From contig JAJYSU010000004.1 of the NCBI GenBank assembly GCA_021793395.1, forward strand, positions 1 to 64,000: 64,000 bases of DNA, read 5' to 3'. Below the pieces are notes generated by a model. That model saw nothing but the letters and a program-made list of their open reading frames with translations. It made no database searches and was not told the DNA's origin. A program made the translations under genes and the position numbers. Source of the DNA: Actinomycetes bacterium. Its GTDB lineage: Bacteria; Actinomycetota; Acidimicrobiia; Acidimicrobiales; RAAP-2. Shown here piece after piece: positions 8,432-19,306 of the stretch (positions are counted from its first letter, which is position 1; each line of letters begins with the position of its first letter).

Positions 8432-8908
8432 CTACGACTCGTCGACCACCGCGACGCCCAGCTCGTCGAGCAGCCCGCGAACACGCCGATCGATCTCGTC
8501 GACAATGCGCTCGACCACCTCGAGAGACTGTCCCGCCGGATCGTCGACCGCCCAGTCGAGGTAGCGACGACCGGGAAACACTGGGCACGTCTCGCCACAG
8601 CCCATCGTCACCACGACGTCCGCTTGCGCCACGAGGTCACCAACCAACAACGTCGGCACCTCCGCGTCGGTCGAGAGGCCCCGTCGCGCCAGGGCCGCCG
8701 CGACCTCGCCGTTCACGGTGCCCGACGGCTCCGAGCCCGCCGAGCGCACGTCGACCCGACCCCGGGCGTAGTGCTCGGTGAGCACCTTCGCGGCCACCGA
8801 GCGACCGGAATTGTGAACGCACGCGTAGAGCACCACCGGACGACGACTCGCGCCGTCCGCCACGGCACGGGCACCCTGGTCCGTCGTCGAACCTCGCTCT
8901 GCACTCAC
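8432..8908 (-). CDS. arsC: Arsenate reductase, low-molecular-weight phosphatase type
   Basis: This enzyme reduces arsenate to arsenite in the cytosol so that the arsenite pump next to it can export it. The catalytic P-loop is CVHNSGRS starting at Cys30, the classic ArsC version of C-x5-R-S. A second redox pair is MGCGETCPVFPG near residue 100, and the DDPAG loop near 120 carries the general acid Asp. In actinobacteria the electrons may come from thioredoxin or mycothiol; this cannot be decided here. It is the last gene of arsD-arsA-acr3-arsC and its ATG overlaps the acr3 stop by 4 nt. A poorly conserved 22-residue N-terminal extension is present. Confidence 0.92.
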   Translation of the reverse strand: MSAERGSTTDQGARAVADGASRRPVVLYACVHNSGRSVAAKVLTEHYARGRVDVRSAGSEPSGTVNGEVAAALARRGLSTDAEVPTLLVGDLVAQADVVVTMGCGETCPVFPGRRYLDWAVDDPAGQSLEVVERIVDEIDRRVRGLLDELGVAVVDES

Positions 8909-9999
8909 TGGTTGCCCTCCTCACTGGGGTAGAAACGACGTCGCGCCCAGAGCGCGACGTACACCAAACCGACCAGGGCGGGGACCTCGATCAACGGGCC
9001 CACCACGCCGGCGAGCGCCTGTCCCGAGGTCACTCCGAAGGTACCAATGGCCACGGCAATGGCCAACTCGAAGTTGTTGCCCGCCGCGGTGAAGGCGAGG
9101 GTGGCGGTGCGCTCGTAGGGCAGGTGCAGCAGCCACGTGCCCCACGCGAACGAACTTGTCCACATCACCGCGAAGTAGCACAGCAGCGGCAGCGCGATCC
9201 GCGCGACGTCCCACGGCTGATGAGTGATCGCGTTGCCCTGCAGCGCGAAGAGCAGCACGATCGTAAAGAGGAGGCCGTAGAGGGCGAAGGGGCCCACGCG
9301 GGGCAGGAACGCGCCTTCGTACCACTCACGCCCGCGGCGGCGCTCGCCGATCAGTCGGGTCAGGTAGCCCAGCGCGAGGGGGATACCCAGAAAGATCAAC
9401 ACGCTGCGCGCGATCGCCCACACCGAGACGTTGACGGTCGACGTGGACAGGCCCAGCCATCGTGGGAGCACTTCGAGGTAGAAGTAGCCCAGCCCCGCGT
9501 ACGCCACGATCTGGAAGAGCGAGTTGATCGCCACGAGCATCGCGGCGGCCGTACCGTCACCGCAGGCCAGGTCGTTCCAGATCAGAACCATCGCGATGCA
9601 CCGGGCCAGTCCCACGAGGATCAGACCGGTGCGGTAGGCGGGCAGATCGCCCAGGAAGATCCACGCGAGGGCGAACATGACCGCCGGACCGACGATCCAG
9701 TTCAAGACGAGTGACGACACGAGCAGGCGGCGATCACTCGCCACGCGGCTCATCTCGCCGTAGCGGACCTTGGCCAGCACCGGGTACATCATGATGAGCA
9801 GACCGATCGCGATCGGCAAACTCGTTCCCACCACCTGCACGCGGTCGAGCGCTCGGTTCAGGCCCGGCACCCCACGGCCCAGCACGATGCCCGTCACCAT
9901 CGCCACACCAATCCACACCGGAAGGTAGCGGTCGAGCACCGAGAGGCGCGCGCCTACCGGTGCGCGCACCAGGCTCGCGGTGGAGGGGGACGCGGCCAT
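8905..9999 (-). CDS. acr3: ACR3 family arsenite efflux permease
   Basis: The 364-residue protein has ten predicted membrane segments and the ACR3 landmarks: the opening LDRYLPVWIGVAMVTGIVLG, MMYPVLAKVRYGE near residue 85, and the conserved transport cysteine in LARCIAMVLIWNDLACGDG near 160. It exports As(III) (and often Sb(III)) across the plasma membrane, driven by the membrane potential or by ArsA. It sits between arsA (3 nt upstream) and arsC (4-nt overlap), so all are translated from one message. The order arsD-arsA-acr3-arsC suggests that this permease works as an ATP-coupled pump. Confidence 0.95.
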   Translation of the reverse strand: MAASPSTASLVRAPVGARLSVLDRYLPVWIGVAMVTGIVLGRGVPGLNRALDRVQVVGTSLPIAIGLLIMMYPVLAKVRYGEMSRVASDRRLLVSSLVLNWIVGPAVMFALAWIFLGDLPAYRTGLILVGLARCIAMVLIWNDLACGDGTAAAMLVAINSLFQIVAYAGLGYFYLEVLPRWLGLSTSTVNVSVWAIARSVLIFLGIPLALGYLTRLIGERRRGREWYEGAFLPRVGPFALYGLLFTIVLLFALQGNAITHQPWDVARIALPLLCYFAVMWTSSFAWGTWLLHLPYERTATLAFTAAGNNFELAIAVAIGTFGVTSGQALAGVVGPLIEVPALVGLVYVALWARRRFYPSEEGNQ

Positions 10000-10002
10000 T
10001 GG

Positions 10003-11796
10003 CTACCTCGCCTCGCCCGCGCCCACCGCGACGTCCACCGTCGCGAGGGCGCGAAGGGCGCGAAGGCCCACGGGGGGCTCCGCCAACCACTCGATCACGA
10101 CCACCGGCCCCGCCGAAGCCGTGCGCGCGGCGTCTATCCACGGAACCTCGTGCGACGCCAGAGCCCGTAGGGTCGGATCCGTGCTCGGCACCCGGGCGAA
10201 GCTCTGGTTGACGACCCACGCCGCGGGTGTCACGCCGGCGCGCGCGAGGTCGGCCTGAAGCGCCTCGGCCTCGTGGAACGGCGTCGCTTCGGGCAGCGTG
10301 ACCACGACGAGTGCGGTGAAGTCGGGGTCGCTCAGGCGACCAAGGAGGCTCGTGACATCCTCGTCGACGTCGTCACCGGAGCGACGAGCGACCTCTCGCT
10401 CGTACCCCCGCGCCGCGTCGAGCAGCAGTAGCGTGTGGCCACTGGGCGCCGTATCGAGCACCACGAATCCCTCACGAGCGCGCGCCACGGTCGCCGCGAA
10501 CTCACGAAACACCGCGATCTCCTCGGTGCACGGTGAACGGAGATCCTCCGCGAGCAGGGTGCGACCCGCCTCGTCGAGCGTGGCACCCGTACTCGCCATC
10601 ACCCCGTCACGGTAGGCGTCGGTCACCACTGACGGATCGATGCGCTCGACTCGCAGTGAGTCGGGGCGACGACCGTCCCCTAACACCGCGAGCAGGTGGG
10701 CCGCGGGGTCCGTCGTCGACAGCACGACCGGCAAGCCGCGATCCGCGAGCGCGCAGGCGAGGGCGGCGGCCACGGTGGTCTTACCCACCCCGCCCTTGCC
10801 CACCGTCATGATCAGGCCACGGCCGCGGTTGGCGAACGACTCCACCAGATCGCCGAGCGACGCACCGTCCACCGTGACGTCCTCGGTGGGACCAACGTCG
10901 ACCACGTCGTCGCGCACGCTCAGCAGCTCCCTCACGCCCGCCACTCCCACGGGAGGACGAGCCACGAGAGGTACCCGATCGGTGACGAGCACGCGCAGAG
11001 CGTCCGGCAGAGACCAGAGCACGCTGCGTTGACGTGCCACGAATTGCTGGGCCCATCGGTCGTCGCTGCGCGACTCGAGGACACCGTTGATGATCAGGCG
11101 TTGTGCGCTCAGACCCACCGACGCCAGTTCACGACTGGCGCGGGCGGCTTCGGACAGCGCCGCCTCGTCCGGACGCGTCACCAGGACGACGGTCGAGCGA
11201 GCGGGATCGGCCAGCGCCGCCAACGCCTCGCCGTAGCGCGCGCGCTGGTTCGTCAGTCCCGACAGGGGACCCACGCAGGTCACCCCGGCGGTGTTGGTGT
11301 CGAGGTAGTTCGTCCACGCCCCGGGTAGGGCGAGGAGCCGCAGCGTGTGCCCCGTCGGCGCCGTGTCGAACACGATGTGGTCGTAGTCTCCGGGGTCCGC
11401 GAGGAGACCGGTGAACTCGTCGAACGCCGCGATCTCGACCGTGCAGGCACCCGACAGTTGCTCGTCGATGCTGCGCACCACGTCGTCGGGCAGAACGCCC
11501 CGGTAGGGGCCCACGACGCGATCGCGGTACGCCTGGGCGGCCGCGGGAGGATCGATGTCGAGAGCCCACAGATTGTCGACCCCCTCGATCGCTCGCGCCT
11601 CACCGGACAGCGTGGTGCCGAGCACCTCACTGAGATTGGACGCAGGATCGGTACTCACCACCAGCACGCGTCGGCCACGATCCGCCAGCGCGACCGCCAC
11701 CGCCGTCGAGAGCGACGTCTTGCCCACGCCGCCCTTACCGGTAAAGAACAGGTACCGCGTGGACGCGTCGAGCAACCCTTCGAGTACGTTCGTCAC
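10003..11796 (-). CDS. arsA: Arsenical pump-driving ATPase ArsA
   Basis: ArsA is a cytosolic tandem ATPase that binds As(III) and energises the membrane permease. Both halves are intact: P-loop GKGGVGKT at residues 20-27 and a second GKGGVGKTT at about 335. The signal-transduction motifs DTAPTGHTLRLL and DTAPSGHTLLLL are present in each half. The three As(III)-binding cysteines of the classic protein have counterparts in SGACTVEIAAF, TCVGPLSGL and SPCTEEIAVF. The length of 597 aa matches the family. GTG start 11796 lies one base after the arsD stop, and acr3 follows after 3 nt. Confidence 0.95.
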   Translation of the reverse strand: MTNVLEGLLDASTRYLFFTGKGGVGKTSLSTAVAVALADRGRRVLVVSTDPASNLSEVLGTTLSGEARAIEGVDNLWALDIDPPAAAQAYRDRVVGPYRGVLPDDVVRSIDEQLSGACTVEIAAFDEFTGLLADPGDYDHIVFDTAPTGHTLRLLALPGAWTNYLDTNTAGVTCVGPLSGLTNQRARYGEALAALADPARSTVVLVTRPDEAALSEAARASRELASVGLSAQRLIINGVLESRSDDRWAQQFVARQRSVLWSLPDALRVLVTDRVPLVARPPVGVAGVRELLSVRDDVVDVGPTEDVTVDGASLGDLVESFANRGRGLIMTVGKGGVGKTTVAAALACALADRGLPVVLSTTDPAAHLLAVLGDGRRPDSLRVERIDPSVVTDAYRDGVMASTGATLDEAGRTLLAEDLRSPCTEEIAVFREFAATVARAREGFVVLDTAPSGHTLLLLDAARGYEREVARRSGDDVDEDVTSLLGRLSDPDFTALVVVTLPEATPFHEAEALQADLARAGVTPAAWVVNQSFARVPSTDPTLRALASHEVPWIDAARTASAGPVVVIEWLAEPPVGLRALRALATVDVAVGAGEAR

Positions 11797-11797
11797 G

Positions 11798-12463
11798 TCA
11801 GCAGCACTCCGACGAGCGCGCCGCGAGAGTCACCGACTGGGTCACCGACGGGCTGGCGCAGTCGCATCCCTCGCCGCACGACTCGTCCACCGACTCGGGC
11901 GCCAACGACTCGGGTGAGCGGAAGAACGCCGACGTCTCCACCGCGAGCACGCGGCTCGCCCTCTCCAGCATCGCTCGTGCGGAGGTGTCCTTCACCGCCT
12001 GCGCGGCCCTCACCGCCTCGACCAGTTGCGCCGAGTCGATACCCGCGCGACGAGCCTGCGCCACGTGGTACTCCAGGCACGGCTCACAATTGGATGCCAC
12101 CGCCGCCCCCACGGCCGCCAGCTCCCGCACGATCTCGTCGGTGACGACCAGCGGCTGGTCATCGACGTTGGCCCACCCGGCGAGCTCCTCTCGCTGGGGG
12201 TAGCGGCCCGACGCTCGAACCTCATCGTCGACGATGACGATCGGGAGAGCGCCTTCACCGCCCGTCTCGAGCAGCGATCGCACCGCCGCGTGCTCAGCGA
12301 ATCGGCCCGGTTCCTGGCTGAGCGTGAAGCGCGTCACCGCGACGCCACGCGAGCCGATCCAGTCGAGATCGGTCGCGAAACGGGCGAGATCCGCGTCCGG
12401 GCTGGGACCGCACACCCCGGTACTGCAGCACATCGCCGGATCGAACACCTGAATCGTACTCAT
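11798..12463 (-). CDS. arsD: ArsD arsenic metallochaperone fused to an AhpD/CMD-like domain
   Basis: Residues 1-105 are a standard ArsD, the chaperone that hands As(III) to ArsA. The diagnostic Cys12-Cys13-Cys18 triad (PAMCCSTGVCG) is intact, as is the GRYPQREELAGW region. Residues 110-180 form a second, helical domain resembling carboxymuconolactone decarboxylase/AhpD, with Cys126-x2-Cys129-x3-His133 (NCEPCLEYH), the redox active-site pattern of AhpD. The tail holds five more cysteines (196, 200, 202, 220, 221). ArsD alone is normally about 110-120 residues, so this is roughly double length. It is the first gene of the arsD-arsA-acr3-arsC operon, behind an ArsR-type operator. Confidence 0.9.
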   Translation of the reverse strand: MSTIQVFDPAMCCSTGVCGPSPDADLARFATDLDWIGSRGVAVTRFTLSQEPGRFAEHAAVRSLLETGGEGALPIVIVDDEVRASGRYPQREELAGWANVDDQPLVVTDEIVRELAAVGAAVASNCEPCLEYHVAQARRAGIDSAQLVEAVRAAQAVKDTSARAMLERASRVLAVETSAFFRSPESLAPESVDESCGEGCDCASPSVTQSVTLAARSSECC

Positions 12464-12514
12464 AACTTTGTCCCTTCACCTCTGAGCGAACGTCGCTCCG
12501 ACTTTCTCTCACAA

Positions 12515-12532
12515 TATCGTTTAACGACGATA
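12515..12532. promoter_or_regulatory. ArsR-type operator upstream of arsD
   Basis: The sequence TATCGT-TTAACG-ACGATA is a perfect inverted repeat (6-bp arms, 6-bp centre) about 52-69 nt before the arsD start. The same ATCGT-N6-(A/T)CGAT element occurs before the dsrE-like gene and the MFS gene, so it is probably the binding site of the ArsR encoded at 13888. Confidence 0.65.
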
Positions 12533-12551
12533 ACCGATCCTACGCCGCGAC

Positions 12552-13370
12552 CTACCCGACGCGGGGTCCCGTGGGTCCCCGGTCGTAGCGGTCCTCCCAC
12601 GTCGACCCCTCAACGCGGCCGAGCCGCGGCGTCGCACCACCGAGCAACGGTTCGTAGGGCGTCGCGTACTCTCGCGGTGCACGCACCTCCCGATTGACGA
12701 CGTCGGTGCGACGCGCCTCGTAGAGCGGCTCGGGGATCTCCGCCGCGTCGAGTGATCGCACGACGTAGTGATCGCCGGGACGCGAGGCCAGGAGGACCTC
12801 GCGCATCCACGACCACTGACGTGCTTCGTTCACGGCGACCAGTTCAGCCTTCTCGCTCGACGTGACGGGGGCGCCCGATGAGTCGTCGAGCAGCGCCGCT
12901 TCCCACTCACTGATGAGGGAGGGAAAGAAGCCCGGCTCCTCGCGGACCTCCCAGGTGCGCCCGGTCGACAACTCACGCACCACGTAGCCCACCCCGAGGT
13001 CGTTGTCCAGGCGAAGGGTCCCGAAGCGACCACGACCCCCGGTGAGGTACGCCGCGACGTCACCGAGGCACGGGCTGTTCTTGGACACCACCAGCAGATC
13101 GGTGCGGTCGAAGGGGCGTCCCTCGAACGCCACGTCCCCGAGGGCGCGCATCGCGTAGGCCCCCCTCAACAGCCCGTCGCAGACGTGACCGTGAAACAGC
13201 ACCAGATCATCGAGTGTCACTCGCTTCGTGCGTGGCTCGAGGCGCCCCTGCGCCGAGCGCGCGTCGCACACGTCGAACTCCAGCACGGGTCGGGCGGCTT
13301 CGAGCCACGCGGGGACGTACCACGCCTCGCCGTCACGTGACGGCTCGAACTCCTGGGTAGACGGTCCCAT
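12552..13370 (-). CDS. FmdE-like domain protein in the arsenic locus
   Basis: The 272-residue protein carries an FmdE-like core: LVLFHGHVCDGLLRGAYAMRAL near residue 58, matching the FHGH-C-G signature of formylmethanofuran dehydrogenase subunit E-like proteins, then KNSPCLGDVAAYLTGGRGRFG near 100. FmdE domains bind a metal between the HGH-C motif and a distal cysteine; here His and Cys residues are present but no C-terminal zinc ribbon is seen. The function of stand-alone FmdE proteins is unknown. Its ATG overlaps the stop of the DsrE-like gene (TAATG), so the two are translationally coupled and share the operator at 13772. A metalloid- or sulfur-related role is inference. Confidence 0.7.
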   Translation of the reverse strand: MGPSTQEFEPSRDGEAWYVPAWLEAARPVLEFDVCDARSAQGRLEPRTKRVTLDDLVLFHGHVCDGLLRGAYAMRALGDVAFEGRPFDRTDLLVVSKNSPCLGDVAAYLTGGRGRFGTLRLDNDLGVGYVVRELSTGRTWEVREEPGFFPSLISEWEAALLDDSSGAPVTSSEKAELVAVNEARQWSWMREVLLASRPGDHYVVRSLDAAEIPEPLYEARRTDVVNREVRAPREYATPYEPLLGGATPRLGRVEGSTWEDRYDRGPTGPRVG

Positions 13371-13726
13371 TAGAAACTGATCACCGCGGCGCCCTCGAGC
13401 CCGTAACGAGCGAAGGCGTCACGGGCGTACTCGAGGAGAATGCCCCGGTTACGCAACTCGTTCTCGGTACCGTCGGCCACCGCGGCGTTGAGACACGCGC
13501 TGACACGAACTCCCGCCGCCGCCAGCGCGTCGATCTGGGCACGGTACTCAACGTGAACCTCGTCGTCGACCGCCGAGGTGATCGCCGCCTGAGCCGGACC
13601 AAAGCAGTACACCTCCAACTCGACGTCCACGTCGTCGGCGATCTGGCGCACCCGCTCGGCGACGTGCGATCCCGCATTGAGCGAGGCGTCGTCCCCGTGA
13701 AAGATGAAAATAACGGTCTTGGCCAT
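13370..13726 (-). CDS. DsrE/YchN-family small protein
   Basis: This 118-residue DsrE-like alpha/beta protein opens with AKTVIFIFHGDDASLNAG and carries cysteines in VYCFGPAQAA and VRVSACLNAA, the second at the position where sulfur-relay DsrE proteins hold their active cysteine. Family members oligomerise and carry persulfides or small ligands. The start was set at ATG 13726, which follows GGAGAGG; the longer open frame upstream crosses the operator and is unlikely to be translated. It is first in a two-gene unit with the FmdE-like gene. Exact chemistry in the arsenic locus is unknown. Confidence 0.75.
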   Translation of the reverse strand: MAKTVIFIFHGDDASLNAGSHVAERVRQIADDVDVELEVYCFGPAQAAITSAVDDEVHVEYRAQIDALAAAGVRVSACLNAAVADGTENELRNRGILLEYARDAFARYGLEGAAVISF

Positions 13727-13771
13727 GATGTCCTCTCCGCCGCACCACTCGGGCGACTTCCTCCTCATCAT

Positions 13772-13787
13772 ATCGTATTTCGACGAT
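13772..13787. promoter_or_regulatory. ArsR-type operator upstream of the dsrE-fmdE pair
   Basis: ATCGT-ATTTCG-ACGAT is a 16-bp inverted repeat 46-61 nt before the ATG of the DsrE-like gene. On the coding (minus) strand it overlaps a TATGAT-like -10 box. It matches the elements at 12515 and 16601 and is likely bound by the arsR product. Confidence 0.6.
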
Positions 13788-13887
13788 CAACGATACATGG
13801 CGGACATTGCCGTCACTGTCTCACTGACGGTGGGACGCGACACCGCCAGGACGCGTCACCGACCCGACGCGTCACCGACCCGACGCG

Positions 13888-14232
13888 TCACAGCGAGGCC
13901 ATCGCCGCCCTGAGGGCGGCGAGCCCACTGGTGTTGAGGCAGTACGACGTGCGTGGCCCCTCGATCTCACCCTGGATCAAGCCGGCGTCACGCAGAATTC
14001 GCAGATGCTCCGAGACCGTCGATTGAGCGAGGGGCAACTCGGCCACGACGTCACCGGTGATACACGACTGGCGCTCGGCCAGTAGTCGCAGTATCCGAAT
14101 TCTCATCGGATGACCCAGCGCCTTAGCCATGGCCGCGAACTGGTCCTCACTGATGGGTGACGCGACAGCCACGGAGTGCGAGTCCACGCAGACGCACTCA
14201 TCGCTCACCGGTTCGGTGCTCACGCTCACCAT
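13888..14232 (-). CDS. arsR: ArsR/SmtB family arsenic-responsive repressor
   Basis: This 114-residue winged-helix repressor has a core AKALGHPMRIRILRLLAER, a recognition helix LPLAQSTVSEHLRILRDAGLI and a wing IEGPRTSYCLN. Candidate metalloid ligands are the N-terminal pair in SDECVCVD (Cys13, Cys15), a cysteine in RQSCITGDVV and one in the wing. ArsR proteins leave DNA when As(III) binds. Two starts are possible: ATG 14232, or GTG 14223, which lies 7 nt behind a TACGAT box and would be leaderless. It is flanked by units carrying a shared operator, so it probably controls the whole block from arsC to the MFS pump. Confidence 0.88.
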   Translation of the reverse strand: MVSVSTEPVSDECVCVDSHSVAVASPISEDQFAAMAKALGHPMRIRILRLLAERQSCITGDVVAELPLAQSTVSEHLRILRDAGLIQGEIEGPRTSYCLNTSGLAALRAAMASL

Positions 14233-14244
14233 CGTATCGGCGAT
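14224..14244 (-). promoter_or_regulatory. Possible arsR promoter with a degenerate operator
   Basis: On the minus strand TACGAT (14236-14231) stands 7 nt before GTG 14223. It lies inside ATCG-N6-CGAT (14231-14244), a 2-bp-shorter relative of the three 16-bp operators in this locus. This would give autorepression, but the shortened spacing makes it uncertain. Confidence 0.35.
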
Positions 14245-14366
14245 GGCTCGCGGGGCCGAGCGCCCCCGCGACGGTGACGACGCCTCGGCCGACGACGAAG
14301 ACCCGCCTCGCGTCAACGACCCTCGTCGCGGCGACGCTGCGGGGCCACCGCGGGCTCTCCCCGTCG

Positions 14367-14897
14367 TCACGACGCCTCGCTCGACGGGGACGCCTCGCTG
14401 ATCGTGGCGTCGTGTCGACGTGTCGGGAACGACTCCTCCCACGTCGTGGCAAAGGGGAAGGTGACGTCGAGCGCGCGGTGCGGCGTCTCGGTACTGTTCA
14501 GAGCGTGCGCCATGACGACGGCGGTGCGCACCATGATCCGTCGCGCGAGCCAGAAGAAGAACACGGCGAGGGGGATATTACCGATCAGCGCCGTCACGAT
14601 GGTCAGCGGCTCACCGCTCGTGCCAAAGGACGTAGTGATGTCGAACCAGGCATCACAGAGCAACATCGTCGCGGCGACGACGGACATCATCGCGAGAATC
14701 TGACGTCGATACCACGCGGCCCACGCCGTCGCCAACAGCACCGCCATCAACACCGAATCGAAGCCGACCCACGCCACGCTCCAGTCATGGGCGCGAAAGT
14801 GCGTAGGAAGTGTCACCGCCAAGAAGATCGTCCAGGGGACCATGATCACGACCGCCACGATCATGATCGTCGACAACAGGCGATTCAACTCCAGCAT
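14367..14897 (-). CDS. Four-TM membrane protein of unknown function, paralogue of 32952-33374
   Basis: The product has four hydrophobic segments in the first 130 residues and a charged C-terminal tail of about 40 residues. The core pattern AWVGFDSVLMAVLLATAWAAWYRRQ followed by CDAWFDITTSF is closely mirrored in the protein at 32952-33374. I recall this architecture in mycobacterial and other actinobacterial proteins of no known function. ATG 14897 follows AGGAG at a normal distance; the in-frame ATG upstream lacks one. It lies between the MFS pump and arsR on the same strand and may be co-transcribed with the pump. Confidence 0.65.
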   Translation of the reverse strand: MLELNRLLSTIMIVAVVIMVPWTIFLAVTLPTHFRAHDWSVAWVGFDSVLMAVLLATAWAAWYRRQILAMMSVVAATMLLCDAWFDITTSFGTSGEPLTIVTALIGNIPLAVFFFWLARRIMVRTAVVMAHALNSTETPHRALDVTFPFATTWEESFPTRRHDATISEASPSSEAS

Positions 14898-14998
14898 CAC
14901 GTGCTCCTGTCGCGCGCGTGACGCGCGCAGTGAATGAGTCGTGCGTGTCACCGTCTCTCCTCTCGCTTCACGTCACCGCCCTCACGGGCCCCGGACGA

Positions 14999-16582
14999 CT
15001 AGAGCGCCTCATCAATCGCCTCAATCAGCTCGGTGTTCACGTGCACGGTCGCCACGCGCGGGAGGGCGAGAGCCGCGAGGAAGGCCACGCCACTCGCGAT
15101 GGCGCCTCCGTACATCGAGACGTGAAAGCCGTGCAGACTGGCGGCCAAACGCTGCGCCTCGCTCGGTACGCTCGCGGCGCGTACGTGACTGCTCAGATAG
15201 TGCTGCGTGGCCGTCGCGGACACGCTGACGATGGCGGCGAGAGCTACCGACGCGCCCAGCTGCTGGCTGGTGTTGAGGAGCCCCGACGCCAGTCCCGCGC
15301 GCGAGTCTCCCACCGACGCCACGGCGTTCAACGTCAGCGGTACGAAGGAGCATCCCTGGCCCAGCCCGACCAGCATCAGTGCGCCAAACACCTGGAGGTA
15401 CGAGGCGTGTGAACCCAGGGTGGACGCCCACAACATCCCCGCGACCACGGCGAGTGGACCCACCATCAGGAAGGGGCGCACCCCGGTACGTCCGACGACC
15501 CGCGAGACCAACCACCCCATCGTCCCCACGACGACCGGAACCGGAAGATAGGCGACACCCGCCTCGAGGGGGCTGTAGTGCAGGACGTTCTGGAGAAACT
15601 GAGTGAGAAAGTACAGTATCGAGAGCATCGCCCCGCCCAGGGTCAGCATCATGACGTATCCCGCCGCCCGGCCGCGATGACGCAGGAACTCGAGGGGCAC
15701 CAACGGCTCGCGCGTGCGACGTTCCACCCCCACGAACACCGTCAGTAGCACCACCGCACTGGCGAGCCACCAGAGGGTGGTACTACTCAACCAGCCCGCG
15801 CTGGGGGCCTGCTCGAGTCCGTAGACCAACGCCGTCATACTGGCCGTGACCACGAGCGCTCCGAGAACGTCGAGGCGGCGCCGGCGACGATCGCCCGCGG
15901 GTAGGGAGATCGGCGCGAGGATCAGCAGGGCTAGGCCAATGGGCACGTTCACGAGAAACACCCAGCGCCACGACGCGAGGTCAGTCAGGACACCGCCGAA
16001 GAGAAGTCCCAATGCGCCTCCGGCTCCCGACATTCCCGCGTAGACCGCCATCGCGCGGTGGCGCCGGGGTCCTTCGGGGAACGTCGTGACGATCAGCGAC
16101 AGCGCCGTAGGGGCGGCGATCGCCGCGCCCAGACCCTGCACGGCACGAGCGCTGATCAGCCACACCTGATCCGTCGCGACACCACCCACGAACGACGCCA
16201 GGGTGAACAGTGCAATGCCGATGATCAGTACGCGACGGCGACCAAACAAGTCACCAGCCCGTCCACCCAAGAGCAATAGACCACCGAAAGCCAACACGTA
16301 CGCATTGATCACCCACGACAGTCCGGTGACCGAAAAGTTCATCGATCGTTGAATCGACGGCAGCGCGATGTTCACGATGGTGCGATCGAGTGTCACCATC
16401 AACTGAGCCGTCGCAATAACGATCAGCGCAATGACCAGTCGTGAGGCGCGTGGTGGGGTGGCGTCACTGGCGATCGGCCGTTCCACCGCGCCAACGGGTG
16501 ACTCCGGCGAGGTCTCGCTCGGTTCGCGTACCGCCACCACGACCTCGTCGCGACGTGCGGGCGGAGTCTCATCCCTGCGCAT
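14999..16582 (-). CDS. MFS multidrug-type exporter, DHA2 (14-TM) family
   Basis: The 527-residue protein has 14 predicted membrane segments and the DHA2/EmrB signatures: LDRTIVNIALPSIQRSM at TM1, GGRAGDLFGRRRVLIIG in the loop after TM2, and an extended TM4-5 region with SGAGGALGLLFGGVLTDLASWRWVFLVN. Members export toxic organic compounds with protons. Unusually, an ArsR-type operator sits just downstream of its promoter, which ties it to the arsenic regulon; it might export organoarsenicals or a conjugate, but substrate is inference. ATG 16582 follows GGAGTGAGG. The N-terminal 45 residues are hydrophilic. Confidence 0.85.
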   Translation of the reverse strand: MRRDETPPARRDEVVVAVREPSETSPESPVGAVERPIASDATPPRASRLVIALIVIATAQLMVTLDRTIVNIALPSIQRSMNFSVTGLSWVINAYVLAFGGLLLLGGRAGDLFGRRRVLIIGIALFTLASFVGGVATDQVWLISARAVQGLGAAIAAPTALSLIVTTFPEGPRRHRAMAVYAGMSGAGGALGLLFGGVLTDLASWRWVFLVNVPIGLALLILAPISLPAGDRRRRRLDVLGALVVTASMTALVYGLEQAPSAGWLSSTTLWWLASAVVLLTVFVGVERRTREPLVPLEFLRHRGRAAGYVMMLTLGGAMLSILYFLTQFLQNVLHYSPLEAGVAYLPVPVVVGTMGWLVSRVVGRTGVRPFLMVGPLAVVAGMLWASTLGSHASYLQVFGALMLVGLGQGCSFVPLTLNAVASVGDSRAGLASGLLNTSQQLGASVALAAIVSVSATATQHYLSSHVRAASVPSEAQRLAASLHGFHVSMYGGAIASGVAFLAALALPRVATVHVNTELIEAIDEAL

Positions 16583-16600
16583 ATCCTCACTCCGATAGTA

Positions 16601-16616
16601 ATCGTCAATCGTCGAT
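16601..16616. promoter_or_regulatory. ArsR-type operator upstream of the MFS gene
   Basis: ATCGT-CAATCG-TCGAT shares the arms and CG-rich centre of the operators at 12515 and 13772 (one mismatch in symmetry). It lies 19-34 nt before the MFS start and covers the predicted transcription start, so binding would block initiation. Confidence 0.55.
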
Positions 16617-16622
16617 TAACGT

Positions 16623-16650
16623 ATCCTAGGTGTATCACATAGTGATACAA
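16623..16650 (-). promoter_or_regulatory. MFS promoter with a 19-bp perfect palindrome
   Basis: On the minus strand a -35 box TTGTAT (16650-16645) and a -10 box TAGGAT (16628-16623) are separated by 16 bp. The palindrome TGTATCAC-ATA-GTGATACA (16631-16649) spans the -35 box and spacer. It is unlike the ArsR sites and resembles a TetR- or GntR-type operator, so the gene may have a second regulator not encoded nearby. Confidence 0.6.
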
Positions 16651-16816
16651 AAGGCAAGCGGCGGCGAAGCCAGAGAGCAGCTCCGCGTTCGATCAACACC
16701 CTGGACGCACCGCCCCGCGGACGACAGTCCACGACCGGTGTGGTCACTCGCCGCCGCCTCGACCGCCTCACACCACGCTCACGTCGCCGCGCCGGTGACC
16801 GCGTCGACGGCACGGG

Positions 16817-19306
16817 TCACTCGAGAGGCTGGTGAGCGAAGGGCGCGGGCTCACGCCCGGCGAGCAGCCACCCTCCGGCCGCGGCACCGACCGGCATCGC
16901 GACCAGGATGACCACCAGGTTGGCGACGGGGACGCTGGAGAGCGAGGAGAGCCCGTCGAGACTGTTCGTCCGGCTGAAGGCAATCACGGCGACATAACCG
17001 GCCGCGGTCCCGACGACGGCCCCGATGAGAGCCAGCGCACCCGCGGTCACGGCGGTGACATTCCGGCGCGTCGTGCTGCTGGCCCCCGTCGCGGTGAGGA
17101 TACGGACGTCGCGCACCGCCTCACTTCGAATGAGTCCAATCGACATGGCGAGGATGCCCAGCGCGAGCAGGATTCCCACCACCGTCGCCCAATCAATGAT
17201 CGAGGCCGAGGTCGGAATGCTCGATTTGGTCTCGACCGTCATACCCGCCGCCGCCGCGGTGGCTCGAGCGTCCGTGATCTGCAGCGCGCTCAGAGTCCGA
17301 GCGGACTGGACCAGCCACCCGGACACCAGTGGCGTGAGAGCCAGGCGGTGAACCGCGTACTGCGTGATCACGGTGTTCGGAGCCGACGTGCCCGACGGGA
17401 GTCCGCTCACTTCCTGTATCGCCGGGTTGGCGAGACAGTCGCTCGCGGGACACGCGAACGGATGTCCACCGGTGGGGCCCCGGCCGAAGTAGTCGCCGTA
17501 CACCAACTGCATCGAGGTGAGCGAGGAGAACCCGGGGCGCATCGACAAGACGTCGGCCGTGGGACTCAACGACGACGCCGCGATACCGAACGCCCTCAGG
17601 AGTTGCGGCGTCGCGACGTAGAGGGGGCCCGAGTAGTTGCGCCCAGGCCCCGCGTGCTGCAGGGTGGCGCTGGTGGTCTCGAGCGTGATGATCGTGTGCG
17701 ATCCGAGGGCGTGGGCGATCGACTGCGCGGCGGCGTGCATCGTCGCGAGATTAAACGTCGGCAGCGGCGCGCTCGCGTTGCCGGGACCTGGTCCGTAGGG
17801 GCCGGGCGTGTAGAGGATCAGTTGCGTGGGCGAAAGGTTGGGCCCGGCCCAGTCGAGGGCGTTCCCGAATCGTGCGGCCGACGCCACCATGACCGTCACG
17901 GCGATGAGCACACCGATACTGATCGCGCCCAGCGCCGCACCGGAGCGCGCGCGGAAGCGCTCCAGATCGCGCGTCGCCATCCGCACGGCGAGGGGGGCCC
18001 GCCGAGTCAGACGACTGAGCGCCACCAGGAAGAACGGAGCCGACAGGACCACGGCCACCGTCAGGGCGACGAAGCCGAGGACCAACTCGAGGACTCCCCC
18101 ACCCTTGCCACCGCTCGCTCCGGCGGCGCCGAGGAGGAAGAACGCCACGACCGCGACGACCACACCGGGAACCACCGTGCGACGCATCGGCGGGGGTGGG
18201 GCCGGACGACCCGACAGCGCGGCGACGATCGAGATCCGCGTCACCGCCCTCGCGGGCTTCGTGGCGGCGACGTAAGCCGCGACGACGGCGAGCGCGACGG
18301 CCGCGACGATGACGACCCACGGCAGCGCCAACACGCCCACCACGTGATGGGCGCTCGCCTCCAGACGAGGCCGGTACGCCAACCAGGCCGCCAGGCCCAC
18401 GACGACGCCCACCAACGCGCCCACGACGCCGGTCAGGACGCCGTTGGCCCGTACCACCATCGCGATGTCCCGGTCGGTGGCGCCGATAGCTCCCAGCATC
18501 CCGATCTGACGCAGGTGCCGCTGCGCCATCACCGTAAAGCCGGCCACCGCCACGAGGGCGATCAGGAGCATGGCGAGAGTCGCCAGGGCCAGGGAGATCG
18601 TCTCGGGGTTCAGTGGGTTGCTCCGGGCCACCATCGCCGGAGTCAGCACGTGGGGGCCGAGTGTGTGGGGGGCGACGCCGGGGGCGTCAAAGAGAACTGT
18701 GACGTCGTTCGGGTGTGGAACCTGACCGGGAACGACCAGCGCGAACTGTTCGAGCAGATCGAGGGGGTTCTCGACGATGCCCACGACGCGGCGAGCGATG
18801 TCCCCCTGGTGCCAGACATCACCCCGCGTGAGGTTGAGCGACGTCGCGACACCCGACGTCAGAGCCACTTCGCCGGCGCGAGTCGGAAAATGCCCCGATA
18901 CCAGCGACAGCAGTGGCTGACCGTAGGGACCACGGGGATTCTGGGCACGCAGGTCGAAGGTGGTGATCGACCCGGGGATCGTCATCGTCTCGTTCTCGAT
19001 CACCTGCACGGAGCCGTAGTGCTGACGCCACGTCACCACCGCCGCCGTCTCAGACGGGCTGACGCCCGAGAACGTGGCGAGATCTGTCGCGGTGCCGAAG
19101 CCCACGTAGGGCGAGAGTGGCGTATTGACGGCGACCCCGACGCCGACGGTCGTCACCGCGACGGCCACCGCGATGAGCGCCAGCACGAGCACCTGCTGAC
19201 GCCACTCGCGCCGCAGCAGACGCCACGCCCAGCGCACCATCGCCCGTCGCACGGGCAGCCGGGCGCCCGACGGTCGTTCGTGCACGAGCGCGGGCGTCGG
19301 CGTCAT
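16817..19306 (-). CDS. ABC transporter permease, FtsX/MacB-like
   Basis: The 829-residue permease has one N-terminal TM (RREWRQQVLVLALIAVAVAV), two FtsX-type core domains of three or four TMs each (near residues 250-370 and 710-820), a central TM block near 400-480 and large extracytoplasmic segments. Such permeases with LolD-like ATPases act in lipoprotein or lipid extraction, or in export and sensing of antimicrobial peptides. It follows the ATPase gene with a 4-nt overlap, in one unit pspC-ATPase-permease. The neighbouring Lia-like two-component pair suggests an envelope-stress role; the actual substrate cannot be seen. Confidence 0.85.
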   Translation of the reverse strand: MTPTPALVHERPSGARLPVRRAMVRWAWRLLRREWRQQVLVLALIAVAVAVTTVGVGVAVNTPLSPYVGFGTATDLATFSGVSPSETAAVVTWRQHYGSVQVIENETMTIPGSITTFDLRAQNPRGPYGQPLLSLVSGHFPTRAGEVALTSGVATSLNLTRGDVWHQGDIARRVVGIVENPLDLLEQFALVVPGQVPHPNDVTVLFDAPGVAPHTLGPHVLTPAMVARSNPLNPETISLALATLAMLLIALVAVAGFTVMAQRHLRQIGMLGAIGATDRDIAMVVRANGVLTGVVGALVGVVVGLAAWLAYRPRLEASAHHVVGVLALPWVVIVAAVALAVVAAYVAATKPARAVTRISIVAALSGRPAPPPPMRRTVVPGVVVAVVAFFLLGAAGASGGKGGGVLELVLGFVALTVAVVLSAPFFLVALSRLTRRAPLAVRMATRDLERFRARSGAALGAISIGVLIAVTVMVASAARFGNALDWAGPNLSPTQLILYTPGPYGPGPGNASAPLPTFNLATMHAAAQSIAHALGSHTIITLETTSATLQHAGPGRNYSGPLYVATPQLLRAFGIAASSLSPTADVLSMRPGFSSLTSMQLVYGDYFGRGPTGGHPFACPASDCLANPAIQEVSGLPSGTSAPNTVITQYAVHRLALTPLVSGWLVQSARTLSALQITDARATAAAAGMTVETKSSIPTSASIIDWATVVGILLALGILAMSIGLIRSEAVRDVRILTATGASSTTRRNVTAVTAGALALIGAVVGTAAGYVAVIAFSRTNSLDGLSSLSSVPVANLVVILVAMPVGAAAGGWLLAGREPAPFAHQPLE

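Follow-up and report, generated by a model that had tools for sequence, protein, structure and literature searches.

A conserved 23-bp operator and a predicted three-unit ArsR regulon with a DsrE-FmdE pair and a DHA2-type exporter in an acidimicrobial arsenic locus

Introduction

Repressors of the ArsR/SmtB family are winged-helix proteins that act at imperfect 12-2-12 palindromes lying over promoter elements or the start site and that leave the DNA when metal is bound, as set out in the part of PMC5658604 considered here. A comparable system was analyzed in a stretch of 64,000 nucleotides, hereafter the window (positions 1 to 64,000 of contig JAJYSU010000004.1, assembly GCA_021793395.1), from an actinobacterium of the Acidimicrobiales (RAAP-2). 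The window encodes an ArsR/SmtB repressor and carries an operator-like palindrome before arsD, before a dsrE-fmdE gene pair and before a gene of the major facilitator superfamily (MFS). The type of repressor, the position of the palindrome over promoter elements and the predicted release by As(III) are shared with the systems described in that part of PMC5658604. In contrast to the SmtB-type operators described there, the conserved palindrome is 11-1-11, is built of ATCG/CGAT boxes and usually stands behind arsR; no SmtB-type 12-2-12 inverted repeat was found in it.

The arsenic stimulon of Agrobacterium tumefaciens 5A, in which four ArsRs were studied by RNA-seq, has several motifs, one of them degenerate, according to the sections of PMC7965956 used here. 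Control by ArsR extends past the classical ars operon in A. tumefaciens 5A and, by prediction, in the present locus; the difference is that here one strict operator would govern three adjacent units. In fold, the repressor is closest to AfArsR (6j05) and CgArsR (6j0e), two As(III)-responsive repressors which rank first and third among the matches of its model; in contrast to these, it is known as a model of moderate confidence and its arsenic binding is predicted.

The DsrE-like protein is comparable with the DsrE/DsrF sulfur carriers in keeping a cysteine (Cys78), and the FmdE-like protein matches the FmdE-fold structures 2gvi and 2glz; unlike these, the two proteins are encoded as a pair and linked to arsenic loci. 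In the part of PMC6620896 considered, DsrE/F-like genes rise or fall under arsenite in Thioalkalivibrio RNA-seq. In a term search of open-access literature, the main text of two Sulfobacillus papers (PMC7409299, PMC6803676) named ArsR and ArsA, and neither DsrE nor FmdE.

Results

The 23-bp operator and its specificity

The preliminary description of the window had proposed that a 16-bp element, ATCGT-N6-(A/T)CGAT with a CG before the second arm, is shared by three arsenic-controlled units. The three elements were found exactly at the positions it gave, with starts at 12516, 13772 and 16601. Comparison of the flanks of genus ArsR orthologs revealed that the element is contained in a 23-bp palindrome, ATCG-N3-WTCG-N-CGAW-N3-CGAT, which consists of two overlapping 16-bp palindromes offset by 7 bp. 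All three operators were assigned to the minus strand. The copy between arsR and dsrE (13772-13794) has no mismatch to the consensus and scored 37.2 bits, the one upstream of arsD (12516-12538) has one mismatch and scored 32.1 bits, and the one upstream of the MFS gene (16601-16623) has two, both in one outer arm, and scored 26.9 bits.

For the weight matrix, 27 sites (25 exact and two with one mismatch) were taken from the remaining genomes of the genus, the window's own genome being excluded. This matrix from relatives alone put the three sites first in the window, the next-best place reaching 1.9 bits. In the whole 2.13-Mb genome, the 41 other places with at most three mismatches all scored 15.6 bits or less; two other places with two mismatches, as in the MFS site, scored 8.9 and 5.9 bits versus 26.9 bits. 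The numbers of genome hits expected at or above 37.2, 32.1 and 26.9 bits were 1.2e-5, 5e-4 and 0.008, respectively, under an order-1 model with the composition of the window.

The 16-bp pattern gave five strand matches at three places of the window (100 shuffles: mean 0.23, largest 4). In its loose form it occurs at 11 places of the genome, eight of them outside the ars locus, so this pattern alone would not prove a regulon. With the CG before the second arm there are four exact places, and at the one located elsewhere (G000:C38:1136) the best 23-mer scored 1.0 bits. In the genome scan suggested in the preliminary description, the 23-bp form is specific and does not give the many random hits without promoter bias that would speak against a regulon; the loose 16-bp pattern would give them.

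A shortened operator had also been described at the arsR promoter. This candidate was rejected on its matrix score, since the best 23-mer there scored -15.6; its core ATCGGCGAT has three copies in the window. The 9-base core WTCGNCGAW directly before arsR is found in two related loci (L098 and L103) as well and may have a weak role.

Association of the operator with the ArsR ortholog

In the genus sample of 99 genomes, the ArsR ortholog was detected at 26 loci in 24 genomes. The exact operator was present in 26 copies in 21 genomes, and all the copies lie inside ArsR-ortholog loci. All 21 carriers thus belong to the 24 genomes with the ortholog, and the 75 genomes that lack it are free of exact copies (Fisher p 1.3e-18, the test being less independent than the p suggests because the sites are linked to arsR). 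The operator begins 8-94 bp past the arsR stop codon in 24 of the 26 loci; one locus (L111) has it upstream of arsR, an arrangement absent from the window, and one with a truncated arsR (L112) has none. Owing to this position, the gene under the operator is in most cases the following one (arsD, dsrE or acr3) rather than arsR itself, and the autoregulatory operator that usually stands upstream of arsR in the classical ars operon was not found here.

An element that follows a stop codon in most loci might also be a terminator, an attenuator or another RNA structure behind arsR. Such a role is extremely improbable, as the element is also found ahead of the MFS gene, ahead of arsD (there behind fmdE) and in the gap between arsB and an MFS gene, with no arsR directly preceding it; in addition, a scan of 12400-16900 found no terminator-like site and -10 elements overlap the 23-bp element.

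One-mismatch places in the genus amounted to 23, four at ars units or MFS genes (G000, G021, G030, G431) and 19 elsewhere, with scores of 13.3-30.0 bits. Six of these 19 were inspected. Near those of G485, G114 and G400 the queried ars genes were not found by tblastn, and the surroundings of those of G443, G454 and G195 were seen as listed open reading frames (ORFs). The 19 sites were treated as chance matches. The 30.0-bit site belongs to G485, a genome with no ArsR ortholog; it exceeds the MFS site in score and lies inside a listed ORF (L263, 2308-2330). It is probably due to chance as well, so that chance does produce single sites this strong in a sample of 99 genomes.

A survey of 395 genomes of the class for the exact operator (central A or T) detected copies in 23 genomes, 17 of them outside the genus. 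These 17 genomes were searched at one locus each, and an ArsR-like tblastn match was obtained in 14 of the stretches (a short one in L251). In L241 and L242 arsR appears when the stretch is widened, L250 contains an ArsR-like ORF, recognized by eye, that is followed by a methyltransferase gene, and in L249 an ArsP-type permease adjoins the operator. One further site, in G249, lies beyond the 17 searched loci.

In other members of the class, the 23-bp motif stands beside ArsRs with 29-54% identity. With those of 29-34% identity (L245, L246, L249, L257) sharing the same operator, a second ArsR encoded by the genome might in principle recognize it. It is nevertheless improbable that a different ArsR/SmtB paralog is chiefly responsible for recognizing the operators, in view of the genus-wide co-occurrence with this ArsR ortholog and the immediate adjacency of the two. 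The ArsR encoded at 13888-14232 is, judging from these associations, the probable reader of the operators.

Some operators of the class adjoin other genes. In G408, an exact copy (L261, 4520-4542) precedes a SLAC1-family transporter gene by 7 bp, counted to its listed start, and the queried ars genes were not found in that stretch. A pyridine nucleotide-disulfide oxidoreductase-like gene adjoining arsR has an operator at its 5' end in L258 (1501-1523, 27.0 bits) and L259 (8719-8741, 29.3 bits), in the former inside a mechanically listed ORF start; this gene is a possible further member of the regulon.

Promoter elements and the mode of repression

TTGAC was present within 50 nt upstream of 10 of the 29 operators of ArsR loci, compared with about 3% expected by composition. 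It stands 17 nt before the operator in seven cases, followed after a 17-nt spacer by TATCGT within the operator, and 27 nt before it in the other three, where the spacer leads to TATAAT or TATCAT over the first bases of the operator. As the -10 element of the TTGAC-bearing sites lies over or inside the operator, its occlusion is the best-supported and likely mode of repression. The overlap in relatives agrees with the earlier proposal that the three sites of the window are placed for repression.

An operator dyad overlapping the regulated promoter was thus seen in 10 of the 29 operators, and the promoters of the window are less clear; the 19 operators without TTGAC include the window's two. 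A possible -10 element of arsD, TAGGAT at 12537-12542 (minus strand), was recognized by eye and overlaps the operator; it has no good -35 element, and a similar overlap is present in L101, L110 and L113. For the MFS gene, TAGGAT at 16623-16628, with its last base within the operator, and TTGTAT at 16645-16650 were found by eye on the minus strand as possible -10 and -35 elements with a 16-nt spacer, where the consensus scan reported no promoter.

The ArsR protein

The repressor of 114 amino acids (aa), encoded at 13888-14232 on the minus strand, scored 52.2 bits with PF01022 (cut-off 22) and 71.6 bits with NF033788 (cut-off 55), and the winged-helix domain was identified. It contains C13, C15, C57 and C98, the last three being invariant in 9 of 9 aligned orthologs, and these cysteines are predicted to bind As(III). 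We presume that the arrangement of the N-terminal and helix cysteines resembles the site of CgArsR. The model, whose confidence is moderate (pLDDT 70.7; under 50 at the N-terminus), matched 6j05 with a Z of 14.0 and 6j0e with a Z of 11.8. The segment QSTVSEHLRIL, kept with small changes even in those distant ArsRs that are encoded next to this operator, was taken for the recognition helix.

The DsrE-FmdE pair

The DsrE-like protein (118 aa; 13370-13726, minus strand) was assigned a start at 13726, from which its homologs align from residue 1. It had no Pfam match at 0.01, and an archaeal homolog with 34% identity (L190) scored 26.1 with PF02635 (cut-off 22.7). The FmdE-like protein (272 aa; 12552-13370, minus strand) scored 38.4 bits with PF02663 (cut-off 22.9). 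Its fold is closest to 2gvi (Foldseek E 6e-4) and 2glz, and its profile gave no match to the PDB sequences.

Pattern-based scanning of 84,980 species, each represented by one genome, followed by an FmdE alignment, resulted in 77 loci. The dsrE gene is directly upstream of fmdE in 59 of them. The genes arsA, arsD, acr3 or arsB are present in 48 loci and any ars gene, relatives of arsR included, in 62; the connection of the pair with arsenic, previously suggested for this window, therefore extends across phyla. Ferrithrix, Sulfobacillus, Alicyclobacillus and Thermoplasmata are among the ars-bearing groups, and the stretch of the Sulfobacillus thermotolerans Kr1 locus (L188) contained no ars gene that could be seen. 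In Ferrithrix thermotolerans DSM 19514 (L166) the order is arsR-operator-arsD-arsA-dsrE-fmdE. Of five Thermoplasmata loci inspected, L190, L199 and L222 have arsB divergent from dsrE-fmdE-arsR, the identity of ArsB being confirmed for L190, and L196 and L217 have dsrE-fmdE-arsR with no adjoining arsB. Judged by gene neighborhood, dsrE-fmdE is a widespread arsenic-locus pair of Bacteria and Thermoplasmata.

Of the 60 aligned DsrE sequences, 58 extend over Cys78, and all of these have the cysteine. H60, H62, C64 and C101 of FmdE are kept in 75-77 of 78 sequences, a count biased by the scan patterns, which covered these residues. Two FmdE homologs, L035 186-920 (G316) and L262 657-1402 (G467), look broken, with an in-frame stop or a split match. 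Selenocysteine in FmdE homologs was considered and rejected, as the in-frame TGA codons lie at or past the gene ends, apart from the decayed copy of G316.

The MFS exporter and the neighboring putative membrane protein

The MFS gene (14999-16582, minus strand) encodes a DHA2-type exporter of 527 aa, which scored 245.1 bits with TIGR00711 (cut-off 230.2) and matched PF07690. In G431, a sister species, the listed start of an ortholog with 82-83% identity is preceded, 5 bp away, by an operator with one mismatch. In G316 and G408, which belong to another family, exact operators occupy the divergent gap between arsB (identified by PF02040 in G316 and by likeness in G408) and an MFS gene whose product is 44-46% identical. 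The suggestion that the exporter belongs to the arsenic regulon gains from both arrangements. G431 contains two copies of the operator-linked gene at contig ends (L159 in C16, 1-410; L162 in C66, 2-412), 92.5% identical over 411 bp, which represent either a duplication or a strain mixture.

In an MFS tree of 35 rows, from which the long-branch row L163_0 was left out, the four operator-bearing rows formed two separate clades. A single clade was rejected with a p-AU of 0.0047, a value to be taken as indicative, since the rows of G316 and G408 are unusual in amino-acid composition and sit on a long stem, and since the group was named after the first tree had been seen. With a joint clade rejected, this type of pump was probably recruited twice; alternatively, an ancient presence may have been followed by many losses.

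A perfect 17-bp palindrome, GTATCACATAGTGATAC, is located at 16632-16648 between the possible -35 and -10 elements of the MFS gene and is possibly the site of a second regulator. The arsD and dsrE sites could accordingly be the ArsR operators and the MFS site a decayed or chance match, the exporter being controlled by another regulator, for instance at GTATCACTATGTGATAC (16632-16648). The two mismatches of the MFS site, the other fetched MFS homologs of the genus, which have no operator, and the 30.0-bit site of G485 in the absence of an ArsR ortholog are in line with this explanation. We consider it unlikely, however, because only 0.008 sites of the MFS score are expected by chance in the genome, the site directly precedes a gene adjoining arsR, and the G431 ortholog has its own operator. 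Even when one mismatch is allowed, the genome has no second copy of the 17-bp palindrome, which is not present in the G431 stretch either. Dual control of the MFS gene is possible.

Between the MFS gene and arsR, a putative membrane protein of 194 aa (TM), hydrophobic by eye, is encoded at 14367-14951 on the minus strand. It had no Pfam or NCBIfam match, and its homologs adjoin arsR or arsC in several relatives. MFS, TM and arsR may form one transcript, in which case arsR would be arsenic-inducible through the MFS operator and may be autoregulated in this way.

The downstream ars genes

The genes MFS, TM, arsR, dsrE, fmdE, arsD, arsA, acr3 and arsC are all located on the minus strand, from 16582 down to 8432. 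ArsD (11798-12463; PF06953, PF02627, NF033727) is fused to a carboxymuconolactone-decarboxylase/AhpD-like domain and has a C-terminal tail with several cysteines. It is followed by the ArsA ATPase (10003-11796; TIGR04291), the ACR3 arsenite efflux transporter (8905-9999; TIGR00832) and arsC (8432-8908), an arsenate reductase-like LMWPc protein (PF01451) which was below the cut-off of the NCBIfam arsenate reductase models.

Discussion

The comparison of genomes established the operator and its placement. A single arsenite-responsive ArsR very probably represses three transcription units through the 23-bp palindrome, as the preliminary description had supposed; at the level of sequence this is supported by the co-occurrence in the genus, the fixed place beside arsR, the overlap with -10 elements and the operator of the G431 exporter. 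Direct binding of ArsR and induction by arsenite would be expected. In the proposed mechanism, ArsR would repress MFS(-TM-arsR), dsrE-fmdE and arsD-arsA-acr3-arsC by covering the -10 element and the start of each promoter, and As(III) binding to its cysteines would release it. The MFS pump would then probably export an arsenical or an arsenic conjugate.

Besides the G485 site and the dissimilar ArsRs found beside the same operator, several observations weigh against parts of this model. C57 is missing from the distant ArsR rows, and the N-terminal cysteine from L247. The consensus scan of 12400-16900 gave no sigma-70-type promoter. Within the genus the operator was seen only at the window's MFS gene and at one G431 copy; the 28 next-best-scoring MFS loci, which are not all the hits, reached at most 7.3 bits, and three MFS paralogs of the same genome scored below 0. 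Fifteen of the 77 FmdE loci had no ars gene in the stretch kept, many stretches being short, and some dsrE-fmdE loci stand beside a different ArsR without this operator (L019, L021).

For the DsrE-FmdE pair, sulfur-relay or thiol-metal chemistry that protects from arsenite, with Cys78 of DsrE as the sulfur carrier, would be the most likely function on the present slender indications, a sulfur relay as such being a guess. We lean slightly towards the view that the two proteins constitute an uncharacterized, arsenic-controlled resistance module that occurs in both Bacteria and Archaea, with many acidophiles among its hosts. In such a module, DsrE as persulfide carrier and FmdE with a His/Cys metal site would act on arsenite or on thiols damaged by it.

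ArsR regulons are already known; the predicted membership of DsrE-FmdE and of a DHA2 pump, the 11-1-11 operator of ATCG boxes and its place behind arsR set the present one apart as a new form. The analysis provides a precise ArsR operator for a little-known actinobacterial lineage, and the operator with its sensor could serve arsenic biosensors. A multidrug-type pump was apparently added to the ArsR regulon on more than one occasion, and DsrE-FmdE has possibly been overlooked in arsenic defense, including that of Sulfobacillus and Alicyclobacillus.

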